Shown here piece after piece: positions 12,674 through 34,664 of a DNA stretch of 34,845 nt (its first letter is position 1; each line of letters begins with the position of its first letter). Location of the stretch: positions 1 to 34,845 of the forward strand of contig CANROR010000003.1 of the NCBI GenBank assembly GCA_947632275.1. The letters are read 5' to 3'. Under the pieces are notes generated by a model. It saw only the letters and a program-made list of their open reading frames with translations, ran no database searches and was not told where the DNA came from. Source of the DNA: an uncultured Bacilli bacterium (lineage in GTDB: Bacteria; Bacillota_I; Bacilli_A; RF39; UBA660). Made by a program: the position numbers and the translations under genes.

Positions 12674-12707
12674 AGTAAATTTAATATAATACTTTATTTA
12701 TTTTTTT
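12664..12707. terminator. Bidirectional terminator between the convergent tagA-like and toxin genes
   Basis: 14-bp perfect stem AAATAAATAAAGTA (12664-12677) / TACTTTATTTATTT (12690-12703) with a T tract. Confidence 0.75.
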
Positions 12708-12991
12708 AAAATGTTGGAATGACTACCTGTACTAATTAATAATAAAATCAAATTAGCGTCATTATATTTGTATATTAAAACCCAGTCTGGTTCAATATGA
12801 CAATCTCTACAATTTTTAAATTTTTTATTGTTGTACAATGCATGATCTTTAAATTTAGAATCTAAAGGCTTTTTTTGTGAAAGAATATCTACTATATATA
12901 ATAATTTATCTATGTCTTTACCTTGCTTGATGACTTTTTTTAGAGCTTGTTTAAAATTTTTAGAATATTTTATACGATATTTAATCGTCAT
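12698..12991 (-). CDS. YafQ/RelE-family mRNA interferase toxin
   Basis: CRDCHIEPDWVLIYKYNDANLILLLISTGSHSNIL is the YafQ-type C-terminal core; overlaps the upstream antitoxin gene by 11 nt. Confidence 0.88.
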   Translation of the reverse strand: MTIKYRIKYSKNFKQALKKVIKQGKDIDKLLYIVDILSQKKPLDSKFKDHALYNNKKFKNCRDCHIEPDWVLIYKYNDANLILLLISTGSHSNILKK

Positions 12992-13298
12992 TTAATAAAG
13001 CCTTTTTTAAATCATTTACATTATCGTAGCTCTTATACTCATCTAAATGTTTTTCCATATAAGCAAGTTCTTTTGCTGAATCTTCAAGTTCTTTTTCGGT
13101 AAAATATTTAAGTAAATCATCATCTTTAGGTAATGCAACATCAAAAGGAATTCCACCATGCATTATTACTTGTTTAATTGTCATGTTTATTAAGCCACTC
13201 ATACTAACACCTAATTTTTGTAATATGGCTGTAACTTTTTCTTTATCCTTTGTGTCCATTTGAACACTTATAGTGGTGGTTAATGCCATAAAATTCAT
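12981..13298 (-). CDS. RelB/DinJ-family antitoxin
   Basis: TTTISVQMDTKDKEKVTAILQKLGVSMSGLINMTIKQVIMHGGIPFDV. Start re-called to 13298 (or 13289), because the track start 13343 is inside the -35 box. Confidence 0.87.
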   Translation of the reverse strand: MNFMALTTTISVQMDTKDKEKVTAILQKLGVSMSGLINMTIKQVIMHGGIPFDVALPKDDDLLKYFTEKELEDSAKELAYMEKHLDEYKSYDNVNDLKKALLNDD

Positions 13299-13314
13299 CT
13301 CACTTTCTTTAAAA

Positions 13315-13343
13315 AGAATACCATTTATTATATATTTTGTCAA
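13315..13343 (-). promoter_or_regulatory. SigA-type promoter of the toxin-antitoxin operon
   Basis: Minus strand TTGACA (13343-13338), 17 bp, TATTCT (13320-13315), with an extended -10 TGG just upstream. Confidence 0.72.
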
Positions 13344-13397
13344 TAATAATTACATAATTCTTATATAATTATTATATGTATTTACCTTAAAATTATG

Positions 13398-13437
13398 CAT
13401 AAAAAATTCTTATTTTGGGATAAATTTAAGAATTTAA
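13398..13437 (-). terminator. Terminator of the orphan antitoxin gene
   Basis: Minus strand AAATTCTTA...TAAGAATTT followed by a T tract, just past the stop at 13445. Confidence 0.6.
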
Positions 13438-13444
13438 ATATAAG

Positions 13445-13732
13445 TTATTTTAATAAATCTTCAAAAAGTTTATCTACACTGTTATATCCTTTATATTTTC
13501 CCGGATGTTTTTTAATTTTTTCCGCTTCTTTTAAAGCACTTAGTAGCTTTTTACTAGGTTTATTTTCATGAATTTCAAAAGGTATTGCTTGTTCTTTAAT
13601 ACTTTGAGTTAAAAATACATTTATAGCAGTATTCATACTAAGTCCAAGTCTTTGGAAAAGATTTTCTGCTTCTTTTTTTAAATTACTATCAATTTTAAGA
13701 CTTAGATTAGTTGTTTTTGGCATATTTTCCAT
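13445..13732 (-). CDS. RelB/DinJ-family antitoxin, no adjacent toxin of its own
   Basis: TTNLSLKIDSNLKKEAENLFQRLGLSMNTAINVFLTQSIKEQAIPFEI; no toxin-sized minus-strand ORF between 13343 and 13445. Confidence 0.85.
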   Translation of the reverse strand: MENMPKTTNLSLKIDSNLKKEAENLFQRLGLSMNTAINVFLTQSIKEQAIPFEIHENKPSKKLLSALKEAEKIKKHPGKYKGYNSVDKLFEDLLK

Positions 13733-15397: not shown

Positions 15398-15461
15398 GGT
15401 ACAAATCATAAAACAAAAACGGTACAAATCATAAAGTAAAAATGGTACAAAATATAAAATG
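15398..15461 (+). repeat. Three iterons at 23-bp period immediately upstream of the ATPase promoter
   Basis: GGTACAAATCATAAAACAAAAAC (15398), GGTACAAATCATAAAGTAAAAAT (15421), GGTACAAAATATAAAATG (15444). Confidence 0.9.
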
Positions 15462-17385: not shown

Positions 17386-17414
17386 TTGAAAATATATATA
17401 TATATATATATAAT
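17386..17414 (+). promoter_or_regulatory. SigA-type promoter whose spacer is a (TA)n tract
   Basis: TTGAAA (17386-17391), 17 bp of ATATAT.., TATAAT (17409-17414); (TA)10 spans 17393-17412. Confidence 0.75.
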
Positions 17415-17463: not shown

Positions 17464-18168
17464 ATGAAAACGTTATCAGTTTATCGAACAGAAAATAAGT
17501 ATATTATAAATTCTATTCAAATGCAAAATATAAAAGCTAAATTGGATAAAATCTTAAAAAGAGATTTTCATTCCCAAAATGGTAGTTATATGGTTAGAAG
17601 TTTATATTTTGATTCAATTAATAATATTGATTTTCAAACTAAATTAGCCGGCACGGAAATACGAAAAAAAATTAGAATAAGAACATATGATACGCATGCT
17701 AATAAATGCAAATTAGAAATGAAAGCTAAAAATGGTGATAATCAACATAAAATTAGCTTATGGATTACGAAAGACGATACTTACCAATTAATAAATCGAA
17801 AATTTGATGTTTTAAAAAAATATTTTAATACAAATGAAGCAGCAATAGATATTTACTTAACAATGAGATTAGGTTGCTACATACCGGTTGTAATGGTGGA
17901 ATATGAACGGATTGCGTATACTTATCCTATTAATAATGCGAGAATTACATTTGATTTTAATATAAAAAGTTCTGAAAGTAATTTTGATTTATTTGATTCT
18001 AATATTTTATACAATAATATAATGTTAGAAAATATAGTTTTGGAAGTTAAATATAATGGTAAAAGTATTAGTTTTATAAATAACATTTTAAATAAGTTTA
18101 AAATTGTAAAAACATCAATAAGTAAATATTGTTTAAGTCGATATATATTTTATGATTTTAATTTTTAG
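17464..18168 (+). CDS. VTC-domain protein (polyphosphate polymerase-like)
   Basis: YRTENKYII, RKKIRIRTYD, KLEMKAK, VMVEYERIAY, LEVKYNG, SKYCLSRYI: basic beta-strand pattern of VTC/TTM tunnel proteins. Confidence 0.85.
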   Translation: MKTLSVYRTENKYIINSIQMQNIKAKLDKILKRDFHSQNGSYMVRSLYFDSINNIDFQTKLAGTEIRKKIRIRTYDTHANKCKLEMKAKNGDNQHKISLWITKDDTYQLINRKFDVLKKYFNTNEAAIDIYLTMRLGCYIPVVMVEYERIAYTYPINNARITFDFNIKSSESNFDLFDSNILYNNIMLENIVLEVKYNGKSISFINNILNKFKIVKTSISKYCLSRYIFYDFNF

Positions 18169-18178
18169 GAGGTAAAAA

Positions 18179-18847
18179 ATGACAAAAGAAAAAATATTTA
18201 ATTACTTTTTAACAAATAATGCTAATTTAGGAGTAAAAATGATTGTTTTTACCATGTTAGCAGCATTAGTAATTGCTAGTATAATTTATGTAACTTATTA
18301 TAATACTCATAAAGGTGTTGCTTATAATAAAGGGTTTAATGCTTCATTAATAATTGTTTTATTAATTTCGGTTGTAATAATGCTAATGATAAGTAGCAAT
18401 ATTGTTATTTCTTTAGGGATGGTCGGAGCATTATCAATAGTTCGTTTTCGGACGGCAGTAAAGGATAGTAGAGATACAATTTTTATATTTTGGTCGATAA
18501 CTGAAGGTTTATGTGTTGGTTCTTTGAATTTTAAATTAGCTTTTATAACGACGTTATTTATTTCCATAATTTTATTAATTCTTACTAATTTGCCAAAATT
18601 AAATTGTAAATATTTACTTGTAATTACGGGAAATAATATTGATAATTTGGCAATCGAAAAAATCTTAAATACGTATTCAACACATAATAAGATAAGATCA
18701 AATAATAAGAATGAAGAAAGTCAAGAAATAATATATGAAATAAGAACTAAAAAAGAATTAGATGCTAATATAGTAAACGAATTAGTAAAAACAAAAGGAA
18801 TTGAAACTGTAAATTATGTTATTGAATCTAGCGAAACAGTTGGTTAA
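18179..18847 (+). CDS. DUF4956-family membrane protein
   Basis: Several TM segments followed by GMVGALSIVRFRTAVKDSRDTIFIFWSITEGLCVG, characteristic of DUF4956. Confidence 0.87.
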   Translation: MTKEKIFNYFLTNNANLGVKMIVFTMLAALVIASIIYVTYYNTHKGVAYNKGFNASLIIVLLISVVIMLMISSNIVISLGMVGALSIVRFRTAVKDSRDTIFIFWSITEGLCVGSLNFKLAFITTLFISIILLILTNLPKLNCKYLLVITGNNIDNLAIEKILNTYSTHNKIRSNNKNEESQEIIYEIRTKKELDANIVNELVKTKGIETVNYVIESSETVG

Positions 18848-18849
18848 TT

Positions 18850-21063
18850 ATGAAAACTAAATTTTTAAAATGGCAATTAGTTATTACAATTGGTATTTTT
18901 CTTATAGTAATATTTTCTTTTTATTATTTTGAAAATAAAAATTTAAAAGCATACCCGGATGATGTTTTATCGTTTAATATTAATAGTGGTTTTTATGATA
19001 AAGAAATTGATATCGAAATTAAAAAATCATTTTCTTTGCCATTTGGAACCAAATTATATTACACCTTAGATGGGAATGATCCCTCAAATGAAAGCAATTT
19101 ATATACAGGTAAAATTTCTTTATCCCTTGATGAAAAAAATTTAAAAGTTTATCCTTTAAAAGTTGTTGCATATTATAAAGGCAATTATAGTGAAATTTAT
19201 AATGAAACTTACATATTGGATAAAGAAATAAAAGAAAATGATATAACACTTATAAGTATTACCTCGGATGAAAAAAATTTATATGATTATGATAAAGGTA
19301 TTTTAGTTAAAGGAGCAAATGATAACTATTATCAACGAAGTGATGATTGGCTAAGGGATGCCCATATTGCCATTTTTAGTGAAAAAGGCGAAAATTTATT
19401 ATCCCAAAATATATTGTTGGGAGTATCAGGGGGAAGTAATTCTTCTGAAAATCCCAAATCATTTAAAATAAAGGCCATAAATGAGGAAAAATTAAATTTA
19501 AATTTTTATGATGAAGATTATAAAGCGTCTTTTTCCTTAATAAATAATTATAATAGTTTAAGATTAAGATCAGGATCTCAAGATTTAAAAACTGGAAATA
19601 TCCGTTCAGGAATAATTAGCCAACTTGCTAGTGATAGTAATTTTGACGGTGCTTCAATTTCTAAAAGAGCAGTAGTATTTCTTAACGGTGAGTTTTATGG
19701 TATTCACGATATAGAACAAAATTATTCAAATTCTTTTTTAGCTAAAAAATATTCTTTACCAAATTCTGATTTAATTGAAAAATATAAGGGTAAGGATATT
19801 ACAACGACAGTTGACGCTAAAATAATTCAATATTTTTATCAAGATTTAAATATGGAACAAAATCGACAAGAATTAGAAAAATATGTGGATATGGATAGTT
19901 ATTTATTTTATTATGCTATTGAAATTTTAGCTAATAATATTGATTGGCCAAATAATAATTTTGAAATATGGCGTTACACCGGTGAGTACAATCCAAATAA
20001 TAAATATACGGACGGAAGATATAGATTTTTAATTTATGATGTTGATGCCATTTTTTCTGGAGATATCCATATTGGCGATTTAGGGGATGATTATCGTGAT
20101 GTATTAATGTTAATTATGAATAATATGTACAATCAACAAAATACATCATTTGTTCAAGTAATGAAATCAACTTATTATCGAAATAAATTTGTTAGAATTG
20201 TAGAAGATTTATTAAATACATCTTTTTCTAGAGAAAATATGCTAAAAATTGCTGATGAAGAAGCTAATAAAATTAATAAAGCAGTTTCAACTTATTACAC
20301 GAAAGAAGAAAAAAATAATTTTTTATATCATGTTGAGTATATAAAAGAAAATATGGAAAATCGGAAAAAAGAAATTGAAAATGACTTTAATCAATTATTT
20401 GCTTTAAAAGAAAAACATAAAATAAATATTGCTTCTACCACTGGGATGAAAATTTATTGGAATAATGTGGAATTATTGCAAAATGAACAATATGAAAATG
20501 AATATTATACCGATATTAAATTGGATTTTCATTACGAAGAATACCCAGGGTATAAATTTCAATATTGGCTTGTAAATGGTAAAAAAATATATGATAAAGA
20601 TTTAATTATTGACAACAATTATAAAAATAAAAATGTGGAAATTAAAATTGTAACGGAATATGTACCAGATATAAATCATTTAATAATTAGTGAAATTTAT
20701 TCTAATGGAAGCTATGATTGGATAAAAATTACTAATACGGGAAAAAATGAGATTAATTTAAAAAATTATTTTCTTTCGGATAATATAAATAAATTAGATA
20801 AATATCGGTTACCAGATGTAATTTTAAAAAGTAATCAAAGTATAATTATAAATGGTAGCAAAAATTATTATGCGTTAGGAGATTATATTTCAAATTTTAA
20901 TTTAAAAGAATATGAATATCTTTATTTGACTTATAATGATCAAATATGCGATAGTTTACAAGTGCCAAGAACATCAAGTATCGAAACATATGGTCGAGTT
21001 GATAATAGTAATACTTTTAAATTTTTCATAAATTATAATAATTTACGAAAAAATAATACGTAA
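18850..21063 (+). CDS. CotH-family (atypical kinase) secreted/anchored protein with chitobiase-like N-terminal and lamin-tail-like C-terminal domains
   Basis: N-terminal TM; FGTKLYYTLDGNDPSNESNLYTG (chitobiase C-like); CotH core LRSGSQDLKTGNIRSGIISQLAS, RAVVFLNGEFYGIHDIEQNYS, NNIDWPNNNFEIWRY, RFLIYDVDAIFSG; LIISEIYSNGSYDWIKITNTGKNEINLKNYFLSDN (LTD-like). Confidence 0.87.
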   Translation: MKTKFLKWQLVITIGIFLIVIFSFYYFENKNLKAYPDDVLSFNINSGFYDKEIDIEIKKSFSLPFGTKLYYTLDGNDPSNESNLYTGKISLSLDEKNLKVYPLKVVAYYKGNYSEIYNETYILDKEIKENDITLISITSDEKNLYDYDKGILVKGANDNYYQRSDDWLRDAHIAIFSEKGENLLSQNILLGVSGGSNSSENPKSFKIKAINEEKLNLNFYDEDYKASFSLINNYNSLRLRSGSQDLKTGNIRSGIISQLASDSNFDGASISKRAVVFLNGEFYGIHDIEQNYSNSFLAKKYSLPNSDLIEKYKGKDITTTVDAKIIQYFYQDLNMEQNRQELEKYVDMDSYLFYYAIEILANNIDWPNNNFEIWRYTGEYNPNNKYTDGRYRFLIYDVDAIFSGDIHIGDLGDDYRDVLMLIMNNMYNQQNTSFVQVMKSTYYRNKFVRIVEDLLNTSFSRENMLKIADEEANKINKAVSTYYTKEEKNNFLYHVEYIKENMENRKKEIENDFNQLFALKEKHKINIASTTGMKIYWNNVELLQNEQYENEYYTDIKLDFHYEEYPGYKFQYWLVNGKKIYDKDLIIDNNYKNKNVEIKIVTEYVPDINHLIISEIYSNGSYDWIKITNTGKNEINLKNYFLSDNINKLDKYRLPDVILKSNQSIIINGSKNYYALGDYISNFNLKEYEYLYLTYNDQICDSLQVPRTSSIETYGRVDNSNTFKFFINYNNLRKNNT

Positions 21064-31999: not shown

Positions 32000-32016
32000 A
32001 ATTGGTTAAAACTATA

Positions 32017-32050
32017 AATAATATGAATTAAAATTCATATTATTTTTTTT
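32017..32050 (+). terminator. Rho-independent terminator after rmlB
   Basis: AATAATATGAAT (32017-32028) / ATTCATATTATT (32033-32044) followed by a T tract. Confidence 0.75.
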
Positions 32051-32099: not shown

Positions 32100-32128
32100 T
32101 TGCAAAAATATATATATATATATATAAT
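32100..32128 (+). promoter_or_regulatory. SigA-type promoter whose spacer is a (TA)n tract
   Basis: TTGCAA (32100-32105), 17 bp AAATATAT.., TATAAT (32123-32128); (TA)9 spans 32109-32126. Confidence 0.74.
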
Positions 32129-32152
32129 AAAAGGGAGAAAAAGAGGTACAAT

Positions 32153-33109
32153 ATGGAAAATTTATCAATTATTATTCCATGTTATAATGAAGAAAAAAAT
32201 ATAGAACTATTTTTTGAAAAATGTTTAGAAACTTTTAAAAAAGAAAAAATAGAATATATTTTTATAAATGATGGTAGTAAAGATCAAACATTAAATAAAA
32301 TTGAAAAATTAATTAAAAATAATAAAAAAGAAAATATTATTTGTTTAAATTTTTCGCGAAATTTTGGTAAAGAAGCGGCTATATATGCAGGATTGAAGGA
32401 AAGCTCTAGTAATTATGTAGCTATAATAGATGCGGATATGCAACAAAATCCTCAATATATTTTACAAATGAAAGATGTTTTAGATCAAAATAAAGAATAT
32501 GATGCTGTTGCATGTTATCAAGCAAAACGTAAAGAAAATAAATTTCTTTCTTTTTGTAAAAGTTGCTTTTATAAATTAATTAATAAAATTTGTGATACAA
32601 GATTTGAAAAAAATGCTTCGGATTTCCGATTATTAAAAAGAAATGTAGTTAATGCCATATTAGATATGCCTGAATACTATCGTTTTTCAAAAGGCTTATT
32701 TTCTTTTGTTGGCTTTAATACTTATTATATGCCTTATGAAGTGGAAAAAAGGATGTATGGTAAAAGTTCTTGGAATCTTACCTCTTTAGTAAAATATGCT
32801 TTTGATGGTATTATTAGTTTTTCTGTTTTTCCTTTAAAAATTTCAACGTTTATTGGCATAATTTCTTTTATTGCCGCTTTTGTTTATATGGCTATTATTG
32901 TTATTCAATGGTTTTTCATCGATGTTACTGTTTCCGGATATGCTACAATTGTTTGTTTAATTTTATTATTTGGAGGATTGCAAATGATATTTTTAGGCAT
33001 TTTAGGAGAATATATTGGTAGGACTTATATAGAGGCGAAAAATAGGCCAGTATATATAATAAAAGATAAATTAAATTATGATAATGTAAAAGAAAATGGT
33101 GAGAGGTAA
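32153..33109 (+). CDS. GtrB/DPM1-like polyprenyl-phosphate glycosyltransferase (GT2 with C-terminal TM pair)
   Basis: LSIIIPCYNEEKNIELFF, FINDGSKDQTL, NFSRNFGKEAAIYAGL, DADMQQNPQYI, KRMYGKSSWNL; C-terminal ILGEYIGRTYIEAKNRPVYII. Confidence 0.93.
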   Translation: MENLSIIIPCYNEEKNIELFFEKCLETFKKEKIEYIFINDGSKDQTLNKIEKLIKNNKKENIICLNFSRNFGKEAAIYAGLKESSSNYVAIIDADMQQNPQYILQMKDVLDQNKEYDAVACYQAKRKENKFLSFCKSCFYKLINKICDTRFEKNASDFRLLKRNVVNAILDMPEYYRFSKGLFSFVGFNTYYMPYEVEKRMYGKSSWNLTSLVKYAFDGIISFSVFPLKISTFIGIISFIAAFVYMAIIVIQWFFIDVTVSGYATIVCLILLFGGLQMIFLGILGEYIGRTYIEAKNRPVYIIKDKLNYDNVKENGER

Positions 33110-33110
33110 A

Positions 33111-34664
33111 ATGGCAAAAATAAAAGAATTTTGGAAAAATAATTTTAAAGAAATATTAACTACAATATTTGTATTTTTTATGTTTTTAATTTTATTTAGA
33201 ATAATTCCCATGATGTACGATGGTTGGGGAGCAAAGCTTTATTATTCTAAATTTGACGGTATTTTTCCTTATATAATAAATATTTTTACTTATTATTATA
33301 AATATCTAAATGGTAGAATTTCACAAAATATTTTATCTGGCTTTTTAGAATCTTTTAAGTCAGAATGGGTTTTAGATATATTTAATGCATTAATAATTGT
33401 GGGAATTTTTTTGTGTATTTACAAGATATTAAATTTAAAAGATAAAAAGAAAAAATTTTGCTTGGCATTTTTATTTTATATGAGTTTAATTTTATTAATT
33501 TCTCCTGATATGCGAATACAAGTTCTATTTTATGCGAATACTACTTATATTGTCCCAATATTTTTAGTGTTGCTATATTATTTGTTATATCAAAAATTAT
33601 TAAATAATGAATGTAAAAGCGATAACAAACAAATAGTTTATATGTCACTATTAGCCTTCGCTATTTGTACTTGGATAGAGCATATTGCGGTAGGATTTAC
33701 TATTGTTTTATTTGGCATGACCTTATATAAATTTTATAAAAAAGATCAAAGAAGATTTAAATTATTTTTTCCATTGGTAATGGCCATAATTGGCGTTTTA
33801 CTAATGTTTTTATCTCCTGGTTTAAGAGGAGGTAGAGTTTTATTAGATATTAATTTTTTAGAAAGATTAATTAAAAATATGTCATCATTTTATATTGATA
33901 TAATATCAAATAATATTTTTATAATTTTTATTTTAGCTTTGTTTGGAGTTATTATTTTTTCAAAGAATATAAAAGGAAAATTTGGCAATAAATTATTAGT
34001 ATTAAATTCCCTAGGACTTAGTATTTTAAGTTTGGCAAAACTAATAACTAATAATTTTAATATAAAAGTATTAAAAAATATTACTAATTTTATTTTTCCT
34101 ACTGATGTTAAAGATGCTAATTTAATAGTTATAATAATTGTTACTTTGCTTATTATTGTATTACTTTTAAATATAATTATAAATTCAAAAAATAAAAAAA
34201 TTTTATTTTATATTGCTTTTATAGTTTTATTAAGTATTGGTCCGATGTGTTTTTCACCTAATACGGGTCCAAGAATTTCTTCTGTTGGTTTTTTCGGCTT
34301 AGTAATTATTCTTACAATAATTTATTTGGAAAAATTTGATTTAAAATTAACAAAAAATTTAAAATTGTTAGCAATCATTTTAGTAATAATTTCTTGTGAT
34401 AAAACAATTCTTTTAGAAAGAAGAGTATATGAAGTTACAGAAAAAAGAGAGAGAATATTGAAAAATGTTGTAGCAATGCAAGAGTTAGGTTTATGGAATT
34501 ACGATAATTATGTATATTTGCCATTGTACGAAGAGGGAGATATTTTACATAGAGGCGATATGTCAAATGATAATTTCTATTTTGGGCAATTTATCTATGC
34601 ATATGGCATAAATGTTAATACCAAAATATATAAGCATGAAGAAATGGAAAATGAGGAATATTAA
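33111..34664 (+). CDS. Polytopic membrane protein, GtrC/DUF6056-like putative glycosyltransferase
   Basis: About ten hydrophobic segments; YYKYLNGRISQN early motif and WIEHIAVGF; located directly after the GtrB-like gene. Start 33111 (SD gagagg). Confidence 0.65.
   Translation: MAKIKEFWKNNFKEILTTIFVFFMFLILFRIIPMMYDGWGAKLYYSKFDGIFPYIINIFTYYYKYLNGRISQNILSGFLESFKSEWVLDIFNALIIVGIFLCIYKILNLKDKKKKFCLAFLFYMSLILLISPDMRIQVLFYANTTYIVPIFLVLLYYLLYQKLLNNECKSDNKQIVYMSLLAFAICTWIEHIAVGFTIVLFGMTLYKFYKKDQRRFKLFFPLVMAIIGVLLMFLSPGLRGGRVLLDINFLERLIKNMSSFYIDIISNNIFIIFILALFGVIIFSKNIKGKFGNKLLVLNSLGLSILSLAKLITNNFNIKVLKNITNFIFPTDVKDANLIVIIIVTLLIIVLLLNIIINSKNKKILFYIAFIVLLSIGPMCFSPNTGPRISSVGFFGLVIILTIIYLEKFDLKLTKNLKLLAIILVIISCDKTILLERRVYEVTEKRERILKNVVAMQELGLWNYDNYVYLPLYEEGDILHRGDMSNDNFYFGQFIYAYGINVNTKIYKHEEMENEEY

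Follow-up and report, generated by a model that had tools for sequence, protein, structure and literature searches.

The window, by which we mean the whole stretch of 34,845 nucleotides analysed here, is an entire contig (C3) of a 1.14 Mb MAG that is 91.8% complete. Its features of interest are collected in Table 1, and include two promoters in which a TA repeat forms the spacer between the -35 and -10 hexamers, each in front of an operon on the forward strand.

Table 1. Features at the two TA-spacer promoters of the window and the genes behind them.
Feature	Coordinates	Strand	Basis
Promoter TTGAAA - A(TA)8 (17 bp) - TATAAT	17386..17414	+	direct read; hexamers at 17386-17391 and 17409-17414
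VTC domain gene, first in the operon 17464..21063	17464-18168	+	PF09359, 9e-34
DUF4956 gene, same operon	18179-18847	+	PF16316, 2e-9
CotH + lamin-tail surface protein, same operon	18850-21063	+	PF08757, 2e-19
Intrinsic terminator of the rmlB transcription unit	32016..32050	+	13-bp stem, 4-nt loop, U run
-35 hexamer TTGCAA	32100..32105	+	direct read; 10/12 consensus, spacer 17
17-bp spacer AAA(TA)7	32106..32122	+	direct read
-10 hexamer TATAAT	32123..32128	+	direct read
Short 5' leader AAAAGGGAGAAAAAGAGGTACAAT	32129..32152	+	direct read
GtrB-like polyprenol-phosphate glycosyltransferase, GT2 with C-terminal membrane segments	32153..33109	+	PF00535, 1e-27; reading frame
Polytopic membrane protein DUF6056	33096..34664	+	PF19528, 3.4e-19
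Putative flippase-like membrane protein, start only (cut at contig end)	34665..34845	+	reading frame

The promoter at 32100 lies between the rmlB terminator and the operon that begins with the GtrB-like gene. A preliminary description of this DNA had placed TTGCAA, a TA-repeat spacer of 17 bp and TATAAT directly after that terminator, and both points are borne out: the motif is seen by direct reading, and the terminator hairpin folds (-9.7 kcal/mol, z -3.74). The simple repeat sits exactly between the -35 and -10 boxes, as in phase-variable promoters of the hif type and as in about 100 more predicted promoters of related genomes, and the unbroken TA run (32108-32126, AT x 9.5, 19 nt) overlaps both the spacer and the -10 box. 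The leader has a purine stretch, and leaders elsewhere in the genus, behind TA as well as poly-T promoters, have a similar one (GGGNGAAAGTAGG, GGGGAAAAATAGAGG). Here, as throughout the TA set, the hexamers were assigned by consensus match and the promoters are predicted ones.

The genes behind this promoter recall the gtr operons (gtrA/gtrB/gtrX) in that a GtrB-like GT2 protein is followed by a polytopic membrane protein, in this case a DUF6056 protein that is a candidate glycan-modifying transferase. They differ in encoding DUF6056 and flippase-like proteins instead, with the small GtrA absent from the available sequence, which ends within the third gene; the 60-residue fragment of that third product is without a Pfam match, and its name is a provisional one. 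Any switching here would also be of a different kind from that of gtr operons, acting through spacer length. In a search for a conserved TA promoter, none was found upstream of the GT2 homologues in congeners, which sit inside operons.

The preliminary description drew attention to the two promoters, 14.7 kb apart, as a pair with TA spacers of 17 bp. The common length stands, but the pair is not an isolated one, being two of 25 such promoters in the genome. Elsewhere in the window we note a YafQ toxin and RelB antitoxin with a second RelB-like gene lacking an evident toxin (12698-13732, minus strand; PF15738, PF04221), and an intergenic 23-bp tandem repeat (GGTACAAATCATAAAACAAAAAC x 2.7, 15398-15459) just upstream of an AAA_14/DUF4143 ATPase gene.

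Generic matches to the promoter hexamers are no more frequent in this AT-rich DNA than in shuffles (48 against 49.6), and by themselves they prove nothing. What departs from chance is the attachment of a TA run to the -10 box. The window contains the pattern TATATATATATAAT two times, where a dinucleotide shuffle gives 0.01, and a pattern search of the genome finds 25 TA runs ending in TATAAT against one for the control, the same pattern read backwards (~25-fold); the earlier judgement that the design is unlikely to be AT-rich noise is thus upheld. Summed over five TA-rich species, 106 TA runs are joined to TATAAT against one reversed, these counts being partly non-independent because members within one genome are in part copies of one cassette. 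Among the 30 species of the genus, each represented by one genome, sites are numerous in this genome (G000, 25), G019 (11), G023 (14), G024 (35) and G025 (21); G027 has six, which are weak and have a recognisable driven gene at few, and the other 24 species have 0–2. At the family level most of 386 genomes have 0–3 sites with similar control counts, and in a class-wide sample of 395 genomes more than two are found only in G000 (25), G023 (14) and G036 (5). Such promoters are far more numerous here than in nearly all other Bacilli genomes sampled and have surface genes downstream; the outcome that the preliminary description named as refuting, chance frequency before random genes, did not occur. 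Four contigs of G000 (C14, C20, C66 and C86) end about 70–90 bp downstream of a TA promoter. Repeated 5′ gene ends are probably the cause of these breaks, and the true number of TA-promoter loci in G000 may be higher than counted; DNA inversion was considered and rejected for these contig ends, because 5′ gene ends common to paralogues explain the assembly breaks more simply.

Most TA promoters of this genome belong to a common cassette, CTTGAA-(TA)n-TAATTATGGGTGAAAGTAGGATTT (also written CTTGAA-(TA)n-TAATTATGGGTGAAAGTAGGATT), usually with a start codon close behind. The proteins encoded behind this cassette begin with a membrane segment and are alike in their downstream region, and some of the driven proteins carry GLUG or laminin-G/lectin-like domains. 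Apart from the two window promoters, nearly all the sites checked in this genome lie before genes for surface proteins anchored at the N-terminus. In other species, genes of similar families are driven, together with lipoprotein genes, an acyltransferase gene and one for a weakly AlgX-like protein. Of the 84 driven genes, 82 have an N-terminal hydrophobic segment, whereas 5 among 25 other genes of the window do, a rough control as all 25 are from one contig; the two exceptions among the 84 are the GT2 and VTC genes of the window itself, both in envelope operons. The TA-promoter set is one that mainly drives a paralogous surface-protein family, of which both window promoters are atypical members. 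Homologues of this family are present in 30/30 species of the genus, and the paralogues examined each have their own repeat promoter, TA here or poly-T in sister species, a trait of the Vlp type.

The spacers of the TA promoters are mostly not of the ordinary length. Five species together provide 81 sites at which a TTG -35 box is clear: 54 have 15 bp, 14 have 17, nine have 13, two have 19, and one each has 18 and 21. Ordinary TTGACA-TATAAT pairs lacking TA in the same genomes (n=119) peak at 17 bp (58, with 19 at 16, 20 at 18 and three at 15), and the TA-spacer counterparts fall at 16–18 bp in only 2 of 18 cases (Fisher p about 8e-9). These two distributions point to a lineage optimum of 17 bp that the TA promoters mostly miss by one unit; most surface genes thus appear to lie one TA unit below it, with both window promoters at 17. 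The flank between the -35 box and the TA run is nearly always of odd length, so that 17 bp can be reached by whole TA steps. Near-identical copies differ by whole repeat units at several sets of paralogous loci, other than that at 32100. In this genome, near-identical cassettes at the separate loci L017 and L036 have 17 and 13 bp, differ mainly in repeat number and cease to be alike a little upstream of the promoter; in G051 a tandem array has spacers of 15/17/17/21/17, near-identical cassettes in G182 have 19/15/19 and one shorter, and G019 has sets of the same kind. In the close pair G024 and G025, the TA number is equal in three of four orthologous promoter pairs, which speaks against free drift of the lengths: they may be under selection, or switching may be slow.

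Related species have the same layout with another repeat. In several species lacking TA promoters, about 14–39 T separate TTGA(C) from a GTATAAT- or GATAAT-like -10 box before the same surface family, and the leader (GGGGAAAAATAGAGG) is like those of TA promoters. Such poly-T spacers are found in G009, G010 and G020 and in smaller numbers in G021 and G006, and the loci concerned (L253-L292) also include G004 and G015. In a tree of a single gene, MutL, from which G019 is absent, the TA species G000, G024, G025 and G023 share a supported clade of seven with the poly-T species G020 and two species that have neither TA nor poly-T, and the other poly-T species and G027 are placed elsewhere. Such a distribution points to more than one change of repeat type, with the repeat staying in the spacer throughout, and this is difficult to account for unless being repetitive is of use in itself. 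In congeners that have no repeat promoters, palindromic repeats are seen by eye before surface genes (L199, L200, L201, L203, L205), alongside what may be a divergent gene for an XRE-type regulator, as a possible third mode of control for the surface family.

Several known systems resemble this arrangement. In Haemophilus influenzae, a (TA)9-11 tract in the fimbrial promoters of hifA/hifB is proposed to fix how far apart the -35 and -10 boxes lie (van Ham 1993, Geluk 1998; as described in PMC2651432). The likeness extends to a TA repeat as spacer, changes by whole units and a gene for a surface structure, and the difference is that hif has one tract common to two divergent genes, at one or few loci (PMC2651432). 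Here, by contrast, about 25 one-directional promoters with varied -35 boxes are found in one genome of an unrelated phylum, and the divergent shared tract is absent at 32100, where rmlB upstream ends in the same direction. The vlp lipoprotein genes of Mycoplasma hyorhinis each have a poly-A promoter tract and switch separately (Citti and Wise 1995; as described in PMC10502178). They are alike in that every surface-family gene has its own promoter repeat tract, and unlike in that the tract is homopolymeric A rather than TA; the poly-T sister species resemble vlp more closely. The vlhA genes of Mycoplasma gallisepticum, with (GAA)n about 40 nt upstream of the transcription start and possibly in need of an activator protein, likewise make up a large surface family; which gene is active is taken to depend on repeat number, and most copies are at other lengths, but the GAA tract lies outside the -35/-10 spacer (PMC6258824). 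No reports of repeat-spacer promoters in this group were found in the open-licence papers searched. Spacer-repeat promoters are textbook examples for one or few loci in pathogens, and the vlp family is smaller than the TA-promoter family here; the kind of system is already known, and its scale, host group and repeat turnover appear, as far as those open-licence papers go, to be new.

The promoter at 32100 is best explained as a predicted sigma-A promoter with a TA microsatellite as its spacer, one of about 25 in the genome, and we think it probable that these are slipped-strand phase-variable promoters resembling hif and vlp, reiterated across the genome and with turnover of the repeat type. 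Replication slippage would add or remove whole TA units and shift the distance from -35 to -10 by 2 bp, through 13, 15, 17, 19 and 21 bp. A spacer of 17 bp would bind RNA polymerase well (on) and one of 15 or 13 bp poorly (off or low), an assignment extrapolated from what holds in other bacteria and from the mode of 17 bp seen in ordinary promoters. Most paralogous surface genes, at 15 bp, would then be a single unit short of the on state, with a few of them and both window promoters at 17, and each cell line would display some of its surface proteins, a small set that changes, and the same may hold for glycan-modifying enzymes. The steps directly supported are the promoter anatomy, the enrichment and orientation, the association with surface genes and the differences between copies in 2-bp steps; tract lengths would have to vary by slippage in living populations. 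Judged from the sequences, individual cells are probably able to turn parts of their surface on or off in a random manner. The preliminary description had already suggested switching, which the non-random placement of TA promoters before surface genes and the unit-step spacer differences partly support, and had missed its scale. The fuller proposition, of an array of microsatellite-spaced promoters most of which are one unit below active length, such that a single slip turns one gene on, and in which TA, poly-T and XRE-operator control have been exchanged before the same family, has in our view an even chance of being right.

The same set could have arisen simply through duplication, an AT-rich cassette being copied along with its surface-gene family and the TA tract being passive, stable and without a role in switching; that one CTTGAA cassette serves most members of this genome, and that TA numbers are so often conserved between G024 and G025, would be expected from this. 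We regard it as improbable nonetheless, because other species have different -35 boxes and flanks (TTGCAA+A, TTGACA+GAA, TTGAAT), other genera (G036, G051, G182) have promoters of their own kind, unrelated genes (GT2, VTC, acyltransferase) also bear a TA promoter, near-identical copies differ in length, and sister species keep the layout with poly-T in place of TA. The last point also tells against a fixed regulatory role for the TA spacer, be it easy melting, binding of a nucleoid protein or regulator, or an alternative sigma factor preferring 15 bp: poly-T is stiff and not easily melted, so that the common feature is repetitiveness and not TA. Long TA tracts do melt easily, and the strong 15-bp mode in several species (54/81) is what such a role would predict, but lengths range over 13–21 bp with several in one species and ordinary promoters peak at 17 bp, and we consider this explanation very unlikely.

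A narrower alternative, compatible with phase variation in the rest of the set, is that the glycan-operon promoter at 32100 is always on, its TA spacer being incidental, and only the surface family is switched. A spacer of exactly 17 bp is found at all three non-family promoters of this genome (L018, L019, L035) and at about 3 of 20 others (Fisher p 0.011, with small numbers); the three also have flanks unlike those of the family cassette, and GT2 homologues elsewhere lack a TA promoter. The case for switching is weaker for the glycan operon than for the surface family on account of that length, which it has in common with the other two non-family promoters, and of those congener homologues. 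An unbroken 19-nt TA tract is however mutable whatever its use, and in G024 an acyltransferase-3 gene of surface-sugar type (L102) stands behind a 15-bp TA spacer and the gene for the weakly AlgX-like protein (L098) behind one of 17 bp. An always-on promoter seems to us rather unlikely, and phase variation of the GtrB-like glycan operon itself is plausible.

Mismatch repair generally lowers slippage at dinucleotide repeats, and its absence was considered as an aid to slippage and set aside, since 29 of the 30 species in the genus, among them this one, have MutL. With MutL present, slippage may be modest. The only member of the genus without a detectable MutL is G019, itself a TA-promoter species, which could be a mutator or reflect an assembly gap.

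With 6–35 copies per genome, the spacer-repeat design is apparently a main control of the surface-gene repertoire in these small-genome, apparently uncultured gut Bacilli. If 17 and 15 bp do correspond to on and off, metagenomes could tell, with no need of culture, which surface each strain expresses. Within this one genus, the poly-T, TA and operator versions form a natural series for the origin of contingency loci and the change of repeat type. Two more distant occurrences were seen. In a distant Bacilli genome (G648, contig C1, L223), CTTGCA-(TA)n-TATAAT occurs twice, 7.8 kb apart; a stretch downstream of it is conserved, and neither site is followed within 300 nt by the start of an open reading frame of 60 codons. 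In G036, of another genus, five TA-spacer promoters (L219, L220, L221, L222) precede genes for secreted and pilin-like proteins of the N-terminal methylation type.
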